Positions 16,915 to 53,916 of a DNA stretch of 64,000 nucleotides are shown here, one piece after another (within the stretch, counting starts at the first letter, position 1; each line of letters begins with the position of its first letter). Source of the stretch: Candidatus Endolissoclinum faulkneri L5 (GTDB lineage Bacteria > Pseudomonadota > Alphaproteobacteria > Thalassobaculales > Thalassobaculaceae); assembly GCF_000510265.1 (NCBI RefSeq), contig NZ_CP006745.1, positions 243,444 through 307,443 on the forward strand. The letters run 5' to 3'. The position numbers and the translations under genes were made by a program. The notes beneath the pieces were generated by a model. It made no database searches and was not told the DNA's origin. It saw only the letters and a program-made list of their open reading frames with translations.

Positions 16915-17042
16915 TTATCTTATAAAACTGAGTAAGAGGAGTAAGAAGAAATAATAGAATCGTGGTTTTTAGTTTGTATTAAGCCTTTTTTTGGCTTGTT
17001 TAAGGAGTAATAAAAATTATTTTATAATAGGTTGATAAGTCA

Positions 17043-17516
17043 ATGGAAAAGGTGCCAATGACCTCAGAAGGTTATATTCGTTTGAGGGATGAATTAAAGA
17101 ATTTAAAGTTTGTAGAGCGTCCTGCGGTAGTTAAGGCGATCGCTGAAGCCAGAGGGCATGGTGATCTTTCTGAAAATGCTGAGTACTATGCCGCAAGAGA
17201 TCGTCAAAGTTTCATAGAAGGTCGTCTTGCAGAACTTGAAGATATAATTAGTCGTTGTGAGGTGATTGATATAAGGAAGTTAAAAGGTGAGACTGTTACT
17301 TTCGGAGTAATTGTTGAGATCGTTGATGAAGAAACAAACGAGGTGACTAGCTACAAGATTGTTGGGCCATATGAAGCTGATATTTCTCGAGGTTTTATAT
17401 CAACTGCTTCTCCTATTGCGCGTGCTTTGATCGGTAAGCGAGTTGGAGAATCTGTAGAAGTAACAACACCGAATGGCGCGAAAGTATTTAACATTATATC
17501 TATTGCAATTGCTTAG
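17043..17516 (+). CDS. greA: Transcription elongation factor GreA
   Basis: Binds the RNA polymerase secondary channel and stimulates cleavage of backtracked transcripts. It has 157 residues, standard length. The N-terminal coiled coil carries the acidic tip region HGDLSENAEYYAARDRQ, and the C-terminal FKBP-like domain ends in the family pattern SP.ARALIGK..G. It follows carB by 128 bp; a small hairpin-like AAGCC...GGCTT with a T-run lies in that gap around 16980-16997. An AGGAG at about 17003 is too far from ATG 17043 to serve it. Confidence 0.97.
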   Translation: MEKVPMTSEGYIRLRDELKNLKFVERPAVVKAIAEARGHGDLSENAEYYAARDRQSFIEGRLAELEDIISRCEVIDIRKLKGETVTFGVIVEIVDEETNEVTSYKIVGPYEADISRGFISTASPIARALIGKRVGESVEVTTPNGAKVFNIISIAIA

Positions 17517-17889
17517 TGCAATCTGACTACGTGATAAACAATTATTTTAAAAATCTTAGCGTAAGTTTTTACCCTTTATTGCCTTCTAGCTTTGACTATA
17601 AATTGAAATATAATCAAGCTATTTTGAGTGAGATTATTTTCAGTATTAAAATATTTATTTTTATGTATCCATGGATTTTTCTGCTCTTAGAGCAAATTAG
17701 ATAATTATTAAAAGGGTGAATATCTAATGAACAACAAATAAATAACGAGCATGTACCAATATGAAAGATTCATTATTGACTTTTTAAATCTATTAAACAA
17801 AAGTAATTCATCGGTTATAATATATAATTTCGATGAATTACTACTGATATGTATACAGATTTTTTCATTATTTTTAATGAAATTAATAT
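17517..17889. other. Spacer between greA and the metH remnant
   Basis: About 370 bp. A 62-codon frame at 17516-17704 has no recognisable protein features. Sequence upstream of about 17920 could be further decayed metH-like DNA, but I could not align it. Confidence 0.5.
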
Positions 17890-17899
17890 GCTATCTATT

Positions 17900-18418
17900 T
17901 TTAAGGACTTTTCTCATTCAGTGACGATAATTGATTGGAATGATTTTATTGTTACTGCTGGCAAAGAAATTCAAAAAAATCTAAAAATTTCGAGGACATT
18001 GCATATGTGTACAATTTTATTCTCTTAAAGGCACTAGCTGGGCTATTTGAGTTGTTGCTTGAGCTCTTATATGAGAGAGAGTAACTTATTTTTTAGCCAA
18101 ATTTTGTAGTTGTGCAGCTAATGCGGATCTATCTAACGAACATTTTAATCGCTAGAAGCTTAACCAAGGTATCTACTTAGCGCCTGGTATCATTCTATCT
18201 AGACTCTAAGTGTTAACTAAAATCAATTTGTTACGTAGCCAATCACATCAGTTTTTGCTTGATATTTCTCTCATCCGTCTGTTTGCTATTTTGCTCTTGG
18301 TAAAATTGAGCGAGATCAGCTGGAGGACCATGTGCGACAGAAGGAAATGCCAATAAAAAATTACTAAAGCTGTTGGCTAGTTCATCCCTTTTTAGAATAT
18401 GAGAAAGCTAGATTCATC
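17900..18418 (+). pseudogene. Decayed copy of the MetH activation (AdoMet-binding) domain
   Basis: Translation in shifting + frames follows the C-terminal part of the intact MetH of this window (minus strand, 29405-32044). Matches in order: [12 protein letters not shown] (about 17934-17973); after a shift NFEDIAYVYNFILLKALA, where the intact gene has [24 protein letters not shown] (18122-18139); QGIYLAPG; TKS; YFSHPS (about 18262-18290); then [11 protein letters not shown] (about 18296-18328) and KEMPIKN. At the DNA level, long stretches also resemble the intact gene. At least three frameshifts and several stops (for example in the tail just after KNY) exclude expression. The pterin and B12 parts upstream are absent or unrecognisable. 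It is either a duplicated 3' end or the last piece of a second metH. Confidence 0.85.
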
Positions 18419-19093
18419 TTCTAGCTAAAACTTACAAATATTATCAAGCGGTAGCTTTAAACTAAATCTTCGCCGAAGAGCACAAACTTTAATTTGGACC
18501 CTTAATACAAACTTCTAAAGTAATACATTGACCACTATTATTAAAACGCTCTATTGATTTGCATTATTTTTAACACTGAGATACGATTTTTAATCGTAGT
18601 TACATTGCTCGCTTGTTGTAGATATAGCTCTTATTTAAATAATGTTTTGCTCTACTTTTTAATAAAAGAGCTAAATAAACTTTAGATAATTGTATGAGAG
18701 TATGAATTATAGAAGAATGTATCTAAATTTATCTTTCTACGTGAAAATGGCATTAAAGAAAAATATTGCGATTATCTAATTATATAGTTTTCAATTTATA
18801 ATTACTTGTGTATTATTTAGTTGGATAAAATATTATTTATAATATTTGAATTATTATTAGTTATTTATATAATCTAGGTGTTTATTTTATTAAATTTCTT
18901 TTTAATTATACTATTATTATAGTAATTAACAGCCAAATTATTTTGAGGTCTTCTTTTATAAAAGATAATTCTAAATAATTAATTATAAAACTATTTACTT
19001 ATTCTGCTAATGTCGGCGGTTATTCCATTGTTAATTATTCAATTACTGACAATTTATAAGGTTTTTTGCGTTTGCTATATTAGATTGTTAATA

Positions 19094-19141
19094 AATTAAT
19101 ATAATTAATCATGTATAACCATATGATTAATTATATTAATT
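19094..19141. repeat. Perfect 19-bp inverted repeat
   Basis: Arms 19094-19112 and 19123-19141, loop of 10 bases. The arms are only A, T and two G/C pairs. It lies in the middle of non-coding DNA, far from any gene. Confidence 0.8.
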
Positions 19142-19837
19142 CAATTTGATATAAGAAAAGATAAACGGTGGACCAAGTATTCTTTAGTGCTTAAAGTAAA
19201 ATTTAACAAAGATTATGTATTTTCTTATGATGCCAATTTGTGTATTAGCTATAAAGTTAGTTTAAAGATAGAAAAACTTTTTTGCTTTGATTTAGAATAA
19301 AATATAATTAGAACGCTAATTTTATGCCTTCTATTATGTATTTATATTATTCTTTAATAAAGTTAGATATTGTGTAGGGTTAATATAACCGAATATTATT
19401 ACACTCGATGAGTATTTATTAAGTGCATACTTACTCTACATATAAGTTATACAGTATTCTTCAAAGTATTATTGTTGTTGACTTGTTGATGTTTTAATTA
19501 ATTGAAATTATGCTTTTTTAAAGCGGTAATTTACTAATAATGGATTTTATATTAGGTTAGCAAAAATTTAATCCTCGATTATATTTATTTCTAATGTAGA
19601 AAAGCAGTATACATGTGATTTAATTATTTAATTTAAACTGATAATTAACAATTTTACTGGAGCTTAATTACATCAATGAGTATACATTATTTGGAGTAAA
19701 TAATAGAATATAACTTACTTTCAGCTCATTAAGTTAGCTAGATTTTTTTTTGAGAGAAGTGCGCTATTTATGGGGAGATGGAATTAACATTTCATAGCAA
19801 TGTACAAGTTTACAGTGAATAAGATATGATTGGATAA

Positions 19838-19887
19838 TAATTAATATAGATTAATACTATAAATTAGCTATTAATCTATATTAATTA
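19838..19887. repeat. Perfect 19-bp inverted repeat
   Basis: Arms 19838-19856 and 19869-19887 around a 12-base loop. No gene within 1.2 kb on the atpF side. Confidence 0.8.
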
Positions 19888-20738
19888 AGGATAAACTTAA
19901 AATTTTTAAGTGAAGTAAATATTTTATTGTTGTTGCCATACTTAACAAAAGTATCGAAGGTGTCAATAAATTATCAGAAAAATAATTCATTATACGAATG
20001 GTATTCAAAAATTAACTGCTAATACTTTTAAAAAGTAAAACATAAACTTTAAGAGGTATCACTTTAATTTGTATTATTCTTTAAGTAGCTCTGTTACATA
20101 AAATATTAATATTTATTTGCAATCAAGGAACAAAATTAATTAAAAAATATTTAATATGCTCTTAAGAAGTTTTTCTGGCAAAATCTGCCAATATTTTGAA
20201 GATTTTTAATTTATTATTTTTTTTTTTGTATTTAATTTTTCTAATACAGTTCTCATTTAGTCAATAATTTTAAATAAATATTAATTTAAAGGATATTTAG
20301 TTTTCGAGCTATATAATGACTTTGCTAAATATAATTTAGTAGTTTATAAATTAAAATAGTTGATTTATTATTGTTAGTTTATTGACACACTAGTGTGATA
20401 ATTTGCTGTACAGTGTGAGATTTCTTCCTTACTTTAAAAATTGCTTTAGCGATTACTAGTTATTGGACTGTGCTTTTAATGCCCAAATTCATGATCGATA
20501 AAAATGTTACTTAATTATTATATTGTTATCAGGTAATTTGGTTAATAAGATTCCGTAAATACTGCAAAAAAGATTATATATTATTTATTCTATATTAATT
20601 TTTTTAGTCTATGGGTTTATAAGGGTTAGTGTAGAAAATAATCTATAATATTGCATAGACGATAAAATTAGATAAGCAGGATTGTTTAAATGTGGTTGTA
20701 ATACAGGATAGCATTTATCAATTAAACTCATAAATAAG

Positions 20739-20778
20739 AAATAACCCTAGCATTATTTAAGTAATGCTAGGGTTATTT
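20739..20778. terminator. Perfect 17-bp hairpin downstream of the atp genes
   Basis: Arms 20739-20755 and 20762-20778, loop TTTAAG. It contains the G+C-richer core AACCCTAGC, unlike its surroundings. It lies 390 bp past the atpF stop on the minus strand. It could end the atp transcript, but the distance makes this tentative. Confidence 0.5.
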
Positions 20779-21166
20779 TAGCTATCTAGAGGATTAAGTC
20801 AAATTCGCTTATAGTTCTATAAATAAAGTCAGCTATTGCTTTTTTATTTTAGTGGATAAATAGAAATACTCATAAATAATAAACATAATCATTATTTATT
20901 CTTAACTTACAATACCTATAATCAATTACACACTTGTTTTCTTTTAATTTTAAATTGCTTACTAAGGTCTAGCAAAAACTGGGTTAAGCAAATAAATAAA
21001 CGAATAATTTGATTATTAATGCTATGTTTTTAACACATTATTCCTACCAATAGAAATTTTGCTAAATGGTATAATTTAAACTTCAATAGCAACAATTTAA
21101 AACGCTATAATTAAAATTATAATTTAATACTTCTTGGGCGGGGGTCTCCATAATAATAATATTTAT

Positions 21167-21646
21167 TTAGAATCTAACTAAAATTTCATCTATAGTTCTA
21201 GAAATAAGCTTTTTATGAGTATTAGTATTAATGTTTTCTGTAATCAATCTTGCGGTAGCGGCGATTGCAAGATCGACCATTTGATCTTGCACCTCTTGAA
21301 AAGCTCTAATTTCATCCACCTTGATCATTTTCATAGCAAAATTTTCTTGATTAGCCATGTATCTAGCCAAACTTATCTCAGCATCTTTTTGCATTTTTAT
21401 AGCTTCAGATTTAGCTTGATTTATAATGATTTCTGATTCATTTAGCGCGTTACGCTGATGATATCGACAATCTTCATTAATTGCTTGAGTCTTTTTACGA
21501 AGTGCTCGAGCCTCCTCGATAGAGGAATAAATTTTTTTAGTTCTTTCATCAATAATGGCCGCAATCACAGGCCAAGCCTTCCAATATGCAATCACTACAA
21601 ATATGAAAAAAGCGATTGCTCCCCAAAAAGTTGGATCAAGTAACAT
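21167..21646 (-). CDS. atpF: ATP synthase F0 subunit b
   Basis: Part of the peripheral stalk linking the a-subunit to F1. It has 159 residues: a short N-terminal part (LLDPTFWGAIAFFIFVVIAYW) forms one membrane helix, followed by a long charged coiled-coil stretch, as in all b subunits. It overlaps the preceding b' gene by one base (21646), so the two are translated as a pair. Photosynthetic and many non-photosynthetic alphaproteobacteria have this b'/b heteropair. It is the last gene of the F0 unit; the F1 genes are not in the window, as is usual in this class. Confidence 0.93.
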   Translation of the reverse strand: MLLDPTFWGAIAFFIFVVIAYWKAWPVIAAIIDERTKKIYSSIEEARALRKKTQAINEDCRYHQRNALNESEIIINQAKSEAIKMQKDAEISLARYMANQENFAMKMIKVDEIRAFQEVQDQMVDLAIAATARLITENINTNTHKKLISRTIDEILVRF

Positions 21647-23312: not shown

Positions 23313-23719
23313 CTAAAAACCCCCTTTTCGTTTTAGTTTGCGTTAGGATGGAGCTAAGTGAATCTAAAGTCTTTAGAAAAAGCATTTCGATCAGAAACCT
23401 AATGAAAAATAATAAATCAGCAAGCTAGTCAATAAAGTTCTTTCACTTCAGCAGTAGCATTTAAATAATAAAGATTTAACATTTGATCAACTAGCATTTA
23501 ATCTATATTAATCTGCTTAATCATTTCAGAAATTTTGTTCTCATCTAATAGTTTCCCAACAGACAAATATAACATTTGTTGGCAATTACAGTAATATTAA
23601 AAATTAATTACTACTTTAATAAACTTGCTATCGATGGGCAACAAGACAATTATGCAAATTTACCATAAGGTCCTAGAACATTCATTAGCTATGCTAGCTG
23701 CTTTCATAAAACGAAATTG

Positions 23720-23773
23720 TAAGTAGCATCATAGCATACACGAGTTTAAGTAGCATCATAGCATACACGAGTT
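23720..23773. repeat. Exact tandem duplication, 2 x 27 bp
   Basis: Identical units at 23720-23746 and 23747-23773. On the minus strand each copy carries TATGCTATGATG, a sequence also seen upstream of ispE (62478-62489). Confidence 0.92.
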
Positions 23774-23776
23774 ATG

Positions 23777-23805
23777 ACTTTATGCGCGGAAAATTCTAAA
23801 GTCAA
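23777..23805 (-). promoter_or_regulatory. Possible sigma70-type promoter toward atpB
   Basis: On the minus strand TTGACT is followed after 17 bases by TAAAGT. It lies about 465 bp before atpB. In such A+T-rich DNA this may be chance; only the good TTGAC hexamer and ideal spacing support it. Confidence 0.25.
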
Positions 23806-23880
23806 GAACGAGATTGCAAAAATAGTCCACGAGATTTATATCCGGATTTGTATTATTCTATTTTACAAAGACAGTTTATT

Positions 23881-23922
23881 ATACAAAGCATACTATTAGT
23901 AATACAAAGCATACTATTAGTA
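23881..23922. repeat. Exact tandem duplication, 2 x 21 bp
   Basis: Identical units at 23881-23901 and 23902-23922, each starting ATACAAAGCATACTATT. It is 108 bp from the 27-bp duplication. Confidence 0.9.
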
Positions 23923-25083
23923 GGTTTGTATTACCTTACTAAGGAGTGCGTTATCTCACTAACATAAAATAAAATTTTTTATGTTTAGAGACTACTTTAG
24001 CATCGATTGTATTTTTATTAGTAGCTCTTGCTTCAAAAAAGTGAAACGGTATTGGCATTACAGATAGCAAATTTTTTTAAAAACAAAGATGTACTTTGGC
24101 AAACCAGAAAAAGCATAATAGTTATGCTGCTAGCTTTCGCTTTTGCTAATAAAATCAACCTGTTGAATGTTAGGTAATTTATTTAAGATTTCTTAATCTT
24201 GTTTCTTGAATCCTTTCAAAATTAATAAGTACGATTGATTATGGAGGGGTCTAGTTATTATGTGTATTTAATCTAATATAATAATATCCTAATTTTAGTT
24301 GATTTTATCCTGAATTTTTACTAAAGATTGATCCTAATATTAATCGCTCAAGAATAGATTTTCTCGCAGTGTCTTCTACGTTAATGGGTTATCAGTGTAG
24401 CTTTCGGCTAGTTATTTTCCTTACAGTCATTGTTTTTTTAAGTTTAAGGTGAAGATCGAAACTTTCTCGAGCAGAGAGTTTATGTTGAGGTGATTATTTA
24501 AAACCATTATAGTCTAGAATTCGATATTTTACGATATCTCTCTCTCGTAGAGATTATTCTTTAATTATATCTTAAAAGTTTATTATCAACGATAAAATTA
24601 GCATAAAAATATGAACAGATTTACAATCTATCGATTTGTCTCTTTGGGCAGAAATTTGATTCTGATTTAACTACAGTATTGGTTATTTGATTATAAAAGT
24701 TATTCAATAAAGCTAAAAGAGAAATATTAGAGAGAGTAATATTCTAAGCTGAGTAATTATTACAATATTTTAGTTTACAATATTTTAGTATAGCTATTTA
24801 TTATTAAATTGTTTGTAATCAATAATGTTAAATTTATTTGGACTACTAAGTAATATTTATTGAGACTACTAAGTAATATAATAACTTTTGATGTATTTCT
24901 TATATCCTTAATATAATGCTGATATGACTTAGGTAATCGACCATTACATCAAAATGCATCGAAGAATGCCATAACGTTAATTGTGTATAAAAGATTAATT
25001 TTATTTTTGCATGTATTATATCGCATTCTGAAGTAACTTTAGTGTCCATCCCCGTAAGCTGATCCTTTTTAGTATTGCTTTGA

Positions 25084-28746: not shown

Positions 28747-29404
28747 ACTAAATTAGCTATCAAACTTGTTTTTATCGATTATTAAATATTCAATAATTTA
28801 ACTATACAATATTAAATTTTTTCTTGTTAGCTAAAGCCATCTTCTATAAAAATTTAGTCTCTAATGTATTAAAAGAGAGCTTTTATTATCTGAATAACGT
28901 GAATTTTTATTCATTTTTGTAGATTATCATTTGATCATTTCAGATATTATATAGTTTTAGAATATCTATTCAATATGATTTTTATCACGAAAGAATTTTT
29001 GCTAGTTTATAAAAATTGATCAGTCTAGAGCTTAATCTTTCGATTAATGAATAATATTTTTCTTTGTTACCTTCTAGCATTAGAATGATAAATTTAGCAC
29101 ATGCTTACATAATTAATAATCTCAAATGATTGTCCAAAGTTTAATACTACCTTTTGTTAATACGCGTAGCAAAAAAAAATTATCGGCATAAACGTTATGC
29201 TTAAAGTAAATGAAGAATGTAACTTAGCTTAAAAAAGTATTGAATTGTTAAAAATAATCCAAAATTGATAGACCACTCCGTAACCATAGTTACTAGTCTA
29301 TTATTTTAGATTTTGTGTTAGGTTTGCAGATCAAAGCTTGTGCGATTTCAATCAGTATAGGTAAGTAGTTTAAAGCTAGGTACTGAGAGTGCTGTAATTT
29401 TTGG
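28747..29404. other. Spacer, no gene seen
   Basis: About 660 bp between tRNA-Pro and the 3' end of metH. A+T-rich, without notable repeat or remnant. Confidence 0.6.
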
Positions 29405-32044
29405 TTAAACTTCTGATCTCATTTTCTCCGTATCGTAGGCTAGCGATGAAGCTAACCAACGCTCTACTGATTTTGTTGGCATTCCCTTTCGCTGAGCATA
29501 ATCTTCAACTTGATCTCGTTCAATTTTACCGAGGCCAAAATAGCGAGCAGATGGATGAGAAAAATACCAACCAGAAACTGATGAGGCTGGCCACATAGCA
29601 AATGATTTAGTTAGGTTAACACCTACTTGCTTTTCAGCGTCCAGTAAATCAAATAGGGTTTTCTTTTCAGTGTGATCTGGACAGGCTGGGTAGCCAGGCG
29701 CTGGGCGAATTCCTCGGTAGTCTTCTGCGATGAGACGTTCGTTGGATAGATCCTCATCGGGCGCATAACCCCAAAATTCGCGACGTACTCTCTCATGTAA
29801 ACGTTCAGCAAAAGCTTCTGCGAGACGGTCTGCTAGTGCTTTTAATAGAATAGAATTGTATACATCTCCAATTTCTTCAAAATTTTTGGCCTTTTCTTGA
29901 ATTTCTTTGCCGGCAGTAACAGCAAATCCTCCTAACCAATCGTTGCCACTAGGCGATATGTAGTCAGATAAAGCTAGATTTGCTCTATTTGAATCGCGTG
30001 GAATTTGTTGGCGTAAAGTGTGAACAACAAACTCCCCATCACTAGTCGTCAGTAGGATATCATCCATCTCAGCTTTTGCTGCCCAAAAACCTATCACTGC
30101 ACGAGGTCTAGCCCATTCGTTATCTATTATTTGTTTTAACATATCTTTAGCGTCGTTCCATAACGAGCTAGCGGTCTTGCCAACAACTGGATCATCAATG
30201 ATATCAGGAAAACGTCCTCGCAGCTCCCAAGTAGCGAAGAAGGGGTGCCAATCGATTCTATTGATCAATTCTTGTAGTGGATAATTATCAAACACCTTAA
30301 TACCTTCAAAAGTAGGCTTGGGTGGTTGATAGTTGATCCATTCAAATTTCGATCTGTTAGACCGAGCCGCATCGATTGTAATTCTATTACGATCGATGCG
30401 GCTAATGTATCTTTTCTCAGCTATACTATGATATTCGGCGCGGATACTTTTCGCATAAGCGAAGCGTCTATTGGACGATAGCAATTCCTGAACTACTCCT
30501 ACTGAACGGCTAGCATCTGTCACATGCACAACTGGCCCATTATATGTTGGATCAATTTTTACTGCTGTATGTATCTTCGAAGTTGTGGCTCCACCAATCA
30601 GTAATGGCAATTCTAGTTTTTCACGCTGCATTTCAGATGCGACATACACCATCTCATCTAAGCTCGGAGTAATTAGACCCGAAAGACCAATAATATCTAC
30701 TTTTTCTTTAACAGCAACTTCTAATATTTTCGCGCAAGGCACCATTACTCCTAAGTCAATAACTTTATAGTTATTACATTGCAATACAACACCAACGATA
30801 TTTTTGCCTATGTCGTGAACATCGCCATTGACAGTAGCCATTAAGATCGTACCCTTCCCAGGGCGCCCCGCATCTTTTTTCTTTTCGATATAAGGCAGCA
30901 AGATAGAGACAGCCTTTTTCATAACACGGGCTGATTTTACTACTTGAGGCAAGAACATCTTTCCTGCGCCAAACAAATCACCTACTAAGTTCATGCCGTT
31001 CATTAGCGGGATTTCAATGACTTGAATTGGCTGGTCGTATTTTTTTCGCGCTTCCTCTACATCTATATCAACAAAATCGCTAATGCCGTGTACTAAAGCA
31101 TGCTCTAGACGTTTATCTACGGTCTGTTCACGCCATGTATGATCAATTATCTTGGTAATTCCGCTAGAACCGCGATACCTTTCAGCAATCTCTAGCATTC
31201 GATCAGTAGCATTATTGGATCGGTTTAGTAAAACATCCTCAATTCGTTCTCGCAAATCCTCAGGGATATTCTGATACACAGGCAGAGATCCTGCATTAAC
31301 GATAGCCATATCTAGCCCAGCTTTGATTGCATGGTACAAAAAGCAAGCGTGCATAGCTTCACGCACCACGTTATTACCGCGGAATGCAAAAGATACGTTG
31401 GATACACCCCCTGAAACATGAGCGTATGGCAGGTTTTTTTTAATTAACTTAGTACCTTCGAAGAAGGCTCGTGCATAATCGTTATGCTCATCGATACCAG
31501 TTGCTACAGCAAAAATGTTTGGGTCAAAGATGATATCTTCGGGAGGAAAATCAATTTCTTTTAATAGGATGTCGTAGGCTCGCTTGCAGATCGCATATTT
31601 GCGTTCAGCGGTCTCAGCCTGACCTTGTTCATCAAAAGCCATAACTACCATAGCCGCTCCATAACGGCGTACTAATCTCGCCTGCTTAAGAAACTGTTCT
31701 TTACCTTCTTTCAGGCTTATTGAATTAACAATGCTTTTACCCTGTAGGCATTTTAAACCAGCCTCTATTACTGACCATTTAGAGCTATCTATCATTATCG
31801 GTACGCGGCTAATGTCTGGCTCACTAGCGATCAAGTTTAAGTATGTGGACATTTCAGCTTCGCTGTTAAGCAAGCCTTCATCCATATTCACGTCAAGGAT
31901 TTGAGCACCGCCGTCCACCTGTTGTCGGGCAATTTCAAGAGCAATATCATATTGACTTTCAGAGATTAGTTTGCGAAAACGCGCCGAGCCAGTAACGTTA
32001 GTTCGCTCTCCTATGTTGACAAATGTACTAGTGATTCTTGTCAC
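29405..32044 (-). CDS. metH: Methionine synthase (B12-dependent), C-terminal polypeptide: folate, cobalamin and activation domains
   Basis: Transfers the methyl group of methyl-tetrahydrofolate through cobalamin to homocysteine. It has 879 residues holding, in order, the pterin-binding domain ([11 protein letters not shown] at the start), the cobalamin cap and Rossmann domain with the axial ligand His410 in DVHDIGKN, and the AdoMet-dependent activation domain from about residue 570 (the final part reads [21 protein letters not shown]). The homocysteine domain is in the next gene upstream, whose TGA overlaps this GTG start by 4 bases (GTGA), so they are translationally coupled. A two-gene MetH is known in many alphaproteobacteria. 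It requires cobalamin, so the cell must make or import it. A decayed copy of its 3' part lies at 17.9-18.4 kb. Confidence 0.96.
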
Positions 32045-33102
32045 AATGTGCTCCTTAGGTCAAATGGTTCCAGACCAGATAAGCGTAGTCGGCGCGATAG
32101 ATGAGGTACAACACGTGGGGTTATGCCACGCACACGATTAGAAATCGCTGCTATATGTGCTGGAGTTGTCCCACAACAACCGCCGACTATATTTACTAAT
32201 CCTTCTTTTGCCCATTGAGCAATATGGGAAGCGGTCTGTTCTGGTTTCTCATCATAACCACCAAATTCGTTCGGTAAGCCAGCATTGGGGTGTGCTGAAA
32301 TCATGACATCAGCTACTCGAGATAGCTCAGCTATATGTGGGCGTAGATCTTTAGCTCCTAGCGCGCAGTTAAAGCCAACGCTAAAAGGATTGACATGACG
32401 TAGCGAATTCCAGAACGCTTCTGGTGTTTGCCCAGAGAGGGTACGACCAGAAAGATCAGTAATAGTACCACTCAGCATAATCGGTAGTTTAACATCTAAT
32501 TTGTCAAAAGCCTGCTCGATTGCAAACAAAGCCGCTTTTGCATTAAGTGTATCGAAGATAGTCTCAACCAGGATTATATCAACGCCGCCTTCGATGAGTG
32601 CTAAAGTTGCTTCAAGATAAGCATCGCGAAGCTTATCAAAAGTGATATTACGTGCTCCTGGATCAGAAACGTTTGGTGAGATTGATGCGGTGCGATTAGT
32701 TGGTCCAAGACATCCGGCTACGAAAGTTCTTACTCCTTTTGCAACACATACTTTATCAGCGGCACGGCGGGCTATTCGCGCACCTTCGAAATTAATTTCT
32801 CTTGCTAAATGAGCAAGGCCATAATCCGCTTGGCTGATCGATGTTGCATTGAAAGTATTAGTTTGAGCAATATCAGAGCCCGCATTAAAATATTGAAGAT
32901 GTATATCTTCAATTTTATCTGGTTGAGATAAGTTCAATATATCATTGTCCCCCTTTAGCGCATGGCTCGCATCAGTGAAACGCTCTCCGCGAAAATCATT
33001 CTCTGTTAAGCTCATTTTTTGAATCATAGTACCCATAGCACCGTCTAAGATAACGATTCTCTGTTTAGTAAGATGCGAAAGTTGCAATGCATCTGCAGTC
33101 AT
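32041..33102 (-). CDS. metH: Methionine synthase (B12-dependent), N-terminal polypeptide: homocysteine S-methyltransferase domain
   Basis: Binds and activates homocysteine through zinc for methylation by the cobalamin half encoded next. It has 353 residues, matching the first barrel of E. coli MetH. Zinc ligands are visible: Cys246 in GFNCALG, and Cys309 and Cys310 in GGCCGTT. The N-terminal [11 protein letters not shown] is typical. GGAGAGAG lies about five bases before the ATG at 33102, so this gene carries the ribosome entry for the pair. It overlaps the C-terminal gene by 4 bases. metF lies 716 bp upstream on the same strand, giving a metF-metH(N)-metH(C) order. Confidence 0.96.
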
Positions 33103-41110: not shown

Positions 41111-42052
41111 ATGTTCGGTTTTGTCGTCAATCGATTGCTTGCCACAATTCCAGTTATGATGATAGTGACGATATTTGTATTTTTGTTTTTGCGTTTAGCA
41201 CCTGGCGACCCAGCAGCAGTACTGGCCGGGGATAACGGATCACCACAGCAGATCATTGAAATTCGTGAGAGACTTGGCCTTAATCAGCCAGTTTTAGTAC
41301 AATTTGGAACCTGGATACTTGGAATTGCTAAAGGAGATTTTGGAAAATCTTACTTTTTTAAAAAGCAAGTTTCAGAACTAATACTTTTACGTGTTGAGCC
41401 TACTATAGCTTTGGCAACTACTACTCTTATTATAACAATCTTAGTGGCAATTCCTATAGGTGTAATTGCAGCTTATAAGCATGATACATGGATTGACTGG
41501 ATAATTATGACTTTATCAGTTGTTGGTTTTTCGATTCCCGCTTTTGTGCTTGGTTACATACTAATCTATTTGTTTGCTATTGAGATCAATCTATTTCCTG
41601 TTCAAGGATACAAACCGCTTGCCGAAGGCTTTTGGCCATTTTTGCACCAATTAATTCTTCCTAGCTTAACGATCAGTGCAATATATATTGCACTGATCGC
41701 TCGCATAACTCGCGCAAGTATACTTGAGGTTTTAGGCGAAGATTATATTCGTACTGCTTATGCAAAGGGCCTGAAGCCTAACAGCGTGCTTCTTAAGCAC
41801 GCTCTACGTAACGCAGCAGTGCCAATAGTTACTGTAATCGGTATTGGCATAGCTCTTCTAACAGGTGGAGTTATAGTAACTGAAAGTGTCTACAATATAC
41901 CTGGCATTGGTCGTCTAATTGTGGATGCGGTTCTGAATCGCGATTATCCAACAATTCAAGCGATTGTTATATTGTTTTCTTTTTTCTATGTGATAGTCAA
42001 CTTACTAGTTGATTTAACCTATAGTTTACTTGACCCAAGGATCCGATATTGA
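41111..42052 (+). CDS. Peptide ABC transporter permease, DppB-like
   Basis: First inner-membrane permease of the importer. It has 313 residues: six hydrophobic segments and the family N-terminus (RLLATIPVMMIVTIFVFLFLRLAPGDPA). The cytoplasmic EAA-loop region reads EDYIRTAYAKGL, where the ATPase docks. GGGGA precedes the ATG by four bases. The last four bases overlap the start of the next permease (TTGA). A 30-bp perfect DNA palindrome lies inside it at 41670-41699, encoding the membrane stretch ISAIYIALI. Confidence 0.95.
   Translation: MFGFVVNRLLATIPVMMIVTIFVFLFLRLAPGDPAAVLAGDNGSPQQIIEIRERLGLNQPVLVQFGTWILGIAKGDFGKSYFFKKQVSELILLRVEPTIALATTTLIITILVAIPIGVIAAYKHDTWIDWIIMTLSVVGFSIPAFVLGYILIYLFAIEINLFPVQGYKPLAEGFWPFLHQLILPSLTISAIYIALIARITRASILEVLGEDYIRTAYAKGLKPNSVLLKHALRNAAVPIVTVIGIGIALLTGGVIVTESVYNIPGIGRLIVDAVLNRDYPTIQAIVILFSFFYVIVNLLVDLTYSLLDPRIRY
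41670..41699. repeat. Perfect 30-bp palindrome inside the DppB-like gene
   Basis: Bases 41670-41699 read the same on both strands (CGATCAGTGCAATAT and its complement, no loop). The encoded residues match the family pattern at this place, so it is not an insertion. Confidence 0.9.
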
Positions 42053-45698: not shown

Positions 45699-45825
45699 AT
45701 AGTTTAAAAGATGTATACTGGGTACAATATAAATATCTAATCTCAAATAGCAAATCAATCTATAGCCTAATACTTAAGTACAGGCTATAGATTGATTTGC
45801 TATTTTTTGCATTCTTTTAAACTAT
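45699..45825. repeat. Nested perfect inverted repeats (24-bp inner, 13-bp outer)
   Basis: The inner arms 45745-45768 and 45782-45805 are exact over 24 bp around a 13-base loop, and the right arm runs into TTTTTT. Outer arms ATAGTTTAAAAGA (45699-45711) and TCTTTTAAACTAT (45813-45825) are exact over 13 bp. It lies 1.1 kb from the last transporter gene and about 210 bp from tRNA-Thr. Confidence 0.88.
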
Positions 45826-50254: not shown

Positions 50255-50307
50255 AATTATAAGCTACAATAATTATCTTTAAGAGATAATTATTGTAGCT
50301 TATAATT
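50255..50307 (+). terminator. Perfect 24-bp hairpin right after hisD
   Basis: Arms 50255-50278 and 50284-50307 are exact complements with loop TTAAG, starting 5 bases after the hisD TAA. No T-run follows, so it may act as a U-less terminator or a 3'-end stabiliser. Confidence 0.7.
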
Positions 50308-52628: not shown

Positions 52629-52686
52629 TTGTATCAATCAGACTATACTAGCAATGCGGATTGCTAGTATAGTCTGATTGATACAA
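52629..52686. repeat. Perfect 27-bp inverted repeat
   Basis: Arms 52629-52655 and 52660-52686 pair exactly around the 4-base loop GCGG. It is the longest stem in the window. It lies 189 bp after maf and 230 bp past the 3' end of the converging tRNA-Phe, so it may be a two-way terminator. Confidence 0.9.
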
Positions 52687-52991: not shown

Positions 52992-53916
52992 TTTACAAGG
53001 GGATGTATCGTAGCAAATATAGTAAAATTTGTCTAGTAAAACTTATAAAAAATTCTGAAATTATGCAATTCGAAGCAACCATAAATGTAGATAATTTAAT
53101 TTTTATGTTCATTTTCTATGATATAATGTTCTGATATTATTTAATTTGAAACGCAAATGTTATTTTTTTTGCTCTTAAAAATAAAATACTATCACAATTG
53201 TTATTAACATTATTAACTCAGCTTCTGTATCGAAACAGAATGGATCGCACTTAACGGTAACTTTTAGCTGATTGCACAAGGAACTGCAGTGAAGAAATAA
53301 GATAAGATCGTATAATAATTAATCAAACTATTACAAATGAATGCATTCTACGATAAAGTTTAAAATGTAACATAATTAGCTTCATTAATGGTTGATTAAT
53401 TCTTCATTTTACTGAATACCATGAGACATAATCTTGTATTCTCAAAAGTAATTTATTTATCAGATAAATAATAATGCTTATGCATTTTTAAATATATTTT
53501 ATTGTTTGATATATTAGTTCATTAATTTTGCCTATTTCTGCAATGAATATATTGATAAGGTAAGTAAACGTGTTGTATATACAGTTTAGGATGAAACAGT
53601 TTTATTGCTAAATAAATCGATTAATTCTACGTCAAAGTCTCCAAAGTTTCTAAAAAGATAAGCATGCTTATCTTTTTAGCGGTCTATGTTTTTTTGTTTT
53701 TAACAACCAATATAACTTTTCATAAAATTGATAAAATACTTATAGTATTGTGCTTGTTTATTTTTGATTTGCTAATCAATGCATCAATTATCGTTTAATT
53801 GATTACATATTTGTAATTTACTGATATCTAAAAATAACATAACGATATTATGTCTTAAATAAGTAACATTCGTTAATACGTTTTCTATATAACGATCAAT
53901 TCGAAAGATAATAGTT
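52992..53916. other. Spacer before serC with a 30-bp palindrome
   Basis: About 925 bp. It contains the palindrome at 53650-53679. No gene recognised. Confidence 0.6.
53650..53679. repeat. Perfect 30-bp palindrome
   Basis: CTAAAAAGATAAGCA and its complement, no loop, 53650-53679. The arms end in a T-run on either strand, which suits a bidirectional intrinsic terminator, but no gene ends nearby on the + side; the tRNA-Phe 5' side is 660 bp away. It could also bind a dimeric regulator upstream of serC. Confidence 0.75.

Follow-up and report, generated by a model that had tools for sequence, protein, structure and literature searches.

A decayed, inverted copy of the metH 3' end in a spacer of Candidatus Endolissoclinum faulkneri L5, probably dead on arrival

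The spacer behind greA in Candidatus Endolissoclinum faulkneri L5 carries a decayed copy of the end of metH, the gene for the B12-dependent methionine synthase, together with the noncoding DNA that follows this gene. We propose, with a probability of about 0.72, that it is a dead-on-arrival inverted partial duplication, inserted by template switching in the L5 lineage near its split from strain L2. Comparison with metH of both strains and with the L2 genome establishes the source of the segment, its inversion, the inclusion of the 3' flank, its absence from L2 and its even decay over codon positions.

Results

The match to metH and its extent

L5 and L2 are described as intracellular symbionts of the tunicate Lissoclinum patella, with a published L5 genome of 1.51 Mbp, a coding share of about 56-57% in both strains and a strain split dated to 6-31 million years (PMC3851785). 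We analyzed a window of 64,000 bp, positions 243444-307443 of the 1,518,636-base L5 contig. Coordinates below are those of the window, and those preceded by L5 or L2 are genome positions. The label greA-like was taken from an earlier reading of the sequence. The relevant features are the following:

17043..17516, plus strand: greA-like gene, 5' of the insertion; open reading frame found once in L5 and once in L2, with 89% identity in the latter
17517..17885: left-hand target spacer, with weak alignment to the spacer of L2 (from L2 262324)
17891..18418, plus strand: decayed copy of the metH 3' end, from about codon 690 of 879; 11 indels relative to both metH genes
18419..18790, plus strand: decayed copy of the noncoding DNA 3' of metH, following the coding copy without a break; right edge 18764-18805
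18788..19604: right-hand target spacer; L2 262659-263422 is colinear with it and 66% identical
28967..29977, minus strand: source segment, metH 3' end and 3' flank, from self-comparison
29405..32044, minus strand: parent open reading frame, the intact C-terminal part of a split metH (879 aa), with the activation domain at its end
32041..33102, minus strand: intact metH N-terminal open reading frame (353 aa), adjoining the parent frame

The original prediction had placed the traces of a second metH activation domain at 17900-18418, and this match was readily recovered. With blastn, 17891-18389 aligned to metH at E=2e-48 (362 of 558 columns identical, 65%). A tblastn search of metH against the window returned three ordered pieces on the same strand (residues 702-720, 717-752 and 815-859; best E 3e-10), so that significant similarity extends past the short motifs noticed at first. 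Likewise, a search of the whole L5 genome with the MetH activation-domain profile (PF02965) detected the copy at E=1.3e-7 and 31.4 bits (cut-off 25), the match spanning profile positions 233-272 of 273 (40 positions) with two stops inside. All of the motifs were found in the frames of 17933-18418: those of 14 and 11 protein letters share one frame, while VYNFILLKALA lies in the second and ADLSNE in the third. The copy is on the plus strand and its parent on the minus strand, as had been noted, about 11.5 kb away (midpoints 11.6 kb apart), and the reported breakage was borne out by stops in all three frames and by the indels. The metH of L2, 90% identical to that of L5, was the closest named locus among the best 80.

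The similarity runs further than the span first given, to about 18790, some 370 bp 3' of the metH stop codon. In the self-comparison, 17891-18844 aligned to 29977-28967 on the minus strand at 64% identity. The 3' flank alone gave local scores of 96 against L5 and 86 against L2, with none of 500 shuffles exceeding 26 and 30, respectively. The match to L2 metH and its flank ends at 18789, and that to L5's own metH can be extended to 18844. Overall, the copied segment amounts to about 0.9 kb, made up of about 190 of the 879 metH codons and about 370 bp of 3' flank, and since the flank was copied along with the coding end, it was the chromosome that was copied and not the gene alone.

No other part of metH was recovered. 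Both metH open reading frames, searched by tblastn against the window, gave nothing significant outside residues 702-859 (next best E 0.99), and the suggested traces of pterin and B12 domains upstream of the copy, as well as those of the N-terminal domain, did not appear. In a whole-genome DNA search, the L5 matches (best 40 of 43 candidates) were the copy itself and metH, and the sole L2 match (best 40 of 49 candidates) was metH, besides 13 weak hits in all with E from 0.097 to 0.34. Among 31 genomes, the activation domain was present in 23; only L5 has it twice, and the other 30 have one match or none. The idea that this genome once held a duplicate or partial duplicate of metH thus stands as regards a broken, opposite-strand duplicate of the end that encodes the activation domain, but not as regards a second methionine synthase: the copied part is limited to about 190 of 879 codons plus flank, no other metH match occurs in the window, none was found in L2 besides metH itself, and the changes lack codon-position bias.

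A probable empty site in L2 and the edges of the copy

Gene order around greA is the same in L2, and the L2 greA spacer is shorter by 936 bp. The copy was found neither in this spacer nor elsewhere in L2 by the whole-genome DNA search, answering the call for a look at the same place in relatives. At the right edge, a single search ends the match to L2 metH at 18789 and picks up L2/L5 colinearity again at 18788. On these alignments the meeting of the two is an independent coincidence.

The left edge was less sharp. A breakpoint scan placed it at 17870-17893 within 2 score units; the scan forces one shared edge, its left part using L2 up to 262686 and its right part starting from 262640-262657, with an overlap of the two in L2. 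In one blastn comparison of the two spacers, the alignment reaches about 17953, inside the copy. The 369-bp stretch from greA to the copy gave a local score of 38 against the L2 spacer (500 shuffles at most 29) and a global score of -6, which the best shuffle equals (mean -28.5), and a stricter chain search left 17517..17885 unaligned to L2. As judged from the alignments, the left edge is soft and the right edge alone coincides independently with L2 colinearity. L2 looks like an empty site, suggesting insertion in L5 rather than loss in L2, with the direction polarised by these two strains only.

Origin and age

At 69 diagnostic sites, L5 and L2 have the same base and at least 5 of 6 outgroups have a different one. 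Here the copy matches the symbionts at 51 sites and the outgroups at 10, with some other base at 8. In a tree, the copy grouped with L5 and L2 with clade support of 100, and it fell beside L5 with weak support (72 for all sites, 64 for positions 1+2). By these site and tree patterns, the copy was born inside the symbiont lineage.

In a three-way alignment, the copy agreed with L5 only at 24 coding sites and with L2 only at 27; the corresponding counts for the flank were 54 and 46. Combined, they amount to 78 versus 73, a share of 0.52 for L5 (78/151, 95% interval 0.43-0.60). Provided that the metH branches are equally long, the copy would have been born either shortly before the split or within about the first fifth of the L5 branch. 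Branch lengths for copy, L5 and L2 were 0.265, 0.219 and 0.263 in the flank and 0.364, 0.064 and 0.066 in the coding columns; the longer copy branch in coding than in flank columns is perhaps due to an optimistic alignment of the A+T-rich flank. The coding copy has a G+C content of 35.3%, compared to 43.4% in metH and 21-23% in the neighbouring spacer, and because it lies in between, the copy looks younger than its surroundings. The description of the segment as a very old gene is at odds with these site patterns, which point to a birth near the L2/L5 split, with the lack of a copy in L2 and with the lack of codon-position bias.

Decay without sign of selection

Changes private to the copy affect 33 of 153 first, 50 of 162 second and 38 of 127 third codon positions and are thus evenly spread (p=0.14), so the proposed measurement of substitution bias yielded none. 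By comparison, L5 and L2 metH differ at 14, 8 and 41 sites at the three positions (p=4e-8). Relative to both parents, the 11 indels fall within about 500 aligned coding columns and include a 47-base loss and an 11-base gain. Substitutions in the copy occurred at 68 of 191 sites from GC to AT and at 30 of 251 sites from AT to GC. The segment has the profile similarity of PF02965 but lacks an open frame under purifying selection. Since the substitutions are even over codon positions, the copy was probably never functional, that is, dead on arrival. A working activation domain at this place is disfavoured by the stops and by the even codon-position pattern. A noncoding RNA in the greA spacer was considered and rejected: an Rfam search of 17000-21200 at the gathering threshold gave no match.

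Other inverted gene-to-spacer copies

We compared open frames of at least 120 codons with the remaining sequence in two segments per strain (764 kb in L5 and 765 kb in L2, about half of each genome), genes below 120 codons being counted as spacer. All five gene-to-spacer matches at E<1e-6 were inverted and located 3.0-11.6 kb from their parent; shuffled spacers (one shuffle for each of the four segments) gave none. We count the five matches as four events, namely the metH copy and the following three, whose labels come from reading translations:

L2 81911-82238, inverted: amidase-like fragment, L2 only; parent L2 84420-85859, intact, about 3 kb apart; 71%, decayed
L5 713214-713284, inverted: TAXI-like binding-protein fragment, L5 only; 71 bp, 93% identical, parent 3 kb away
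L5 988479-988659 and L2 967134-967318, inverted, decayed: purF-like fragment, both strains; 65% in L5, 62% in L2

At the amidase-like site, L5 has 7 bases between the flanking matches, the left of which is weak (E 7e-4). At the TAXI-like site, the flank matches in L2 overlap by 26 bases. The purF-like fragments occupy matching places in both strains and derive from the same part of the parent, and by their positions this copy is probably older than the strain split. Considering orientation alone, four events all inverted have a chance of 1 in 16; their locality is striking. In a wider list of 92 pairs (60-kb windows, E<1e-5), the gene-to-spacer pairs were 5 in number and identical to those above. 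Gene-to-gene pairs were all direct and strong spacer pairs were direct and close together, while the remainder consisted mostly of weak A+T-rich spacer pairs in both orientations. The copy lies at a lower coordinate than its parent in 4 of 4 events. GC skew, profiled in L5 only, is positive at metH but close to zero in the region of 713 kb and negative in that of 988 kb, a mixed picture from which we derive no polarity relative to the replication fork.

Discussion

A candidate mechanism

We infer that the copying mechanism was RecA-independent inverted template switching. A replication fork would have stalled or collapsed and jumped to a nearby template on the opposite strand. About 0.9 kb, comprising the last 190 or so metH codons and about 370 bp of downstream spacer, would then have been copied in inverted orientation before a second switch back placed the copy in the spacer behind greA, about 11.5 kb away. 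There, without a start and without the other metH domains, it would have decayed with no sign of selection. The same process may have yielded the amidase-like copy in L2, the TAXI-like copy in L5 and the purF-like copy in both strains.

Template switching accounts for inversion, locality and partial copies alike, and the metH copy is both inverted and near its parent. RecA family members gave no match in the present-day genome of either L5 or L2 but were found in 14 of 14 control genomes, in line with the published analysis, which describes recA as lost and saw no mobile elements (PMC3851785). The MMBIR model is likewise RecA-independent (PMC2621351). In E. coli, double inverted template switches have been inferred, the second being needed to restore the replicon, and the fork size is quoted as 1.5 kb (PMC3161906). 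As the distances of 3-12 kb exceed this size, template switching after fork collapse is a better fit than switching inside a single fork. The breakpoints of the metH copy are placed only within about 20-40 bp, too coarse to read junction microhomology, and the young TAXI-like junctions, inspected for microhomology, were not readable either.

Alternative origins

It is unlikely that the copy predates the separation of L2 and L5 and was later deleted in L2. Its nearly equal closeness to both metH genes (78 versus 73 sites) and its soft left edge would suit such an origin, and the purF-like copy, seemingly common to both strains, indicates that pre-split events of this kind occurred. However, its right edge (18789) falls where L2 colinearity resumes (18788), and three near-equal flank branches leave little room for an internal branch. 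We regard as quite improbable a leftover of an ancient, complete second metH gene, or of a bigger duplicated segment such as a remodelled tandem-inversion duplication, that was subsequently trimmed by deletions: the window holds no further significant metH match, the left spacer resembles that of L2, if weakly, and the copy has no codon-position bias, although amplification assays in E. coli and Salmonella are described as commonly yielding embedded inverted duplications (PMC3161906).

Insertion of a reverse-transcribed metH mRNA end could explain the 3' flank through a possible read-through transcript, yet it does not predict that copies are inverted and lie less than 12 kb from the parent, nor were mobile elements seen in the published analysis (PMC3851785); we give this route very little credence. 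Still less credible is an activation domain gained by horizontal transfer or derived from an ancient paralogue, which is contradicted by the symbiont's own noncoding 3' flank in the copy, by the 51 of 69 symbiont-specific sites with clade support of 100 and by the lack of a second match in each of the other 30 genomes searched.

Relation to known systems

Inverted partial copies reportedly adjoin their parent in the Salmonella tandem-inversion duplications of Kugelberg et al. The metH copy shares with these the inverted, partial nature and the nearness to the parent but sits kilobases away instead. Duplications of the FoSTeS/MMBIR type in starving E. coli are likewise inverted and are explained by two template switches (PMC3161906, PMC2621351). 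Embedded inverted duplications in E. coli measure 5.2-42.6 kb, show 3-30 bp of microhomology and lie within selected amplifications (PMC3161906); unlike them, the Ca. E. faulkneri copies are 0.07-1 kb long and decayed, with unreadable junctions and no known selection. Among the titles and abstract beginnings of open-licence literature, we found no such copies described for Ca. E. faulkneri or recA-less symbionts. The nearest case was ntrX of Ehrlichia ruminantium, an intracellular alphaproteobacterium, whose inverted partial duplication, going by the title, exchanges sequence with its parent by gene conversion (PMC9937504).

The pseudogenes in Table 2 of PMC3851785 are similarly frame-broken, with a G+C content between those of genes and spacers, but they represent lost genes decayed in place, whereas the metH copy derives from a still intact gene. 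Assuming a shared coordinate origin, neither a metH copy nor any pseudogene around position 261 kb of L5 appears in this table, and the word 'methionine' is absent from the main text. The authors of that report inferred that the spacers are formerly functional genes (PMC3851785), and the original prediction similarly took some spacers for very old genes. Decay in place can hold for most spacers but not for the segment with the metH copy. Copying from a living gene into a spacer is a second source of noncoding DNA, the copy here probably having been made after the strains parted.

More tentatively, and at somewhat less than even odds, a recA-less symbiont without reported mobile elements may keep gaining small local inverted gene copies by fork template switching, such that part of the 'gene graveyard' would be new dead DNA and not old genes. 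If true, this would go some way towards explaining why about 43% of the genome is noncoding and why its shrinkage is slow, and local inverted copies would serve as internally dated neutral clocks for symbiont mutation. As the parent is kept in two strains, the metH copy provides a neutral yardstick, having gathered about 0.36 substitutions per site, compared with about 0.065 on each metH branch. Recurrence of such copies without recA would open the way to testing in symbionts whether replication errors are a source of structural change.

Further observations

Near-perfect palindromes of about 30-60 bp occur in the window at 52629-52686, 45745-45805, 50255-50307, 20739-20778, 41670-41699 and 53650-53679 and are possibly terminators. 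The spacer at 23610-24314 corresponds to L2 267880-269638, where L2 is longer by 1054 bp; a self-comparison of this L2 stretch gave no strong self-match accounting for the surplus. Finally, one spacer harbors nested direct repeats in both strains (L5 133452-133984, 98-99% alike; L2 129406-130137, 74-80% alike), with no L2/L5 match at E<1e-5 between L5 133079 and 134203. The repeat-bearing spacer at L5 133452-133984 may be duplicating repeatedly.
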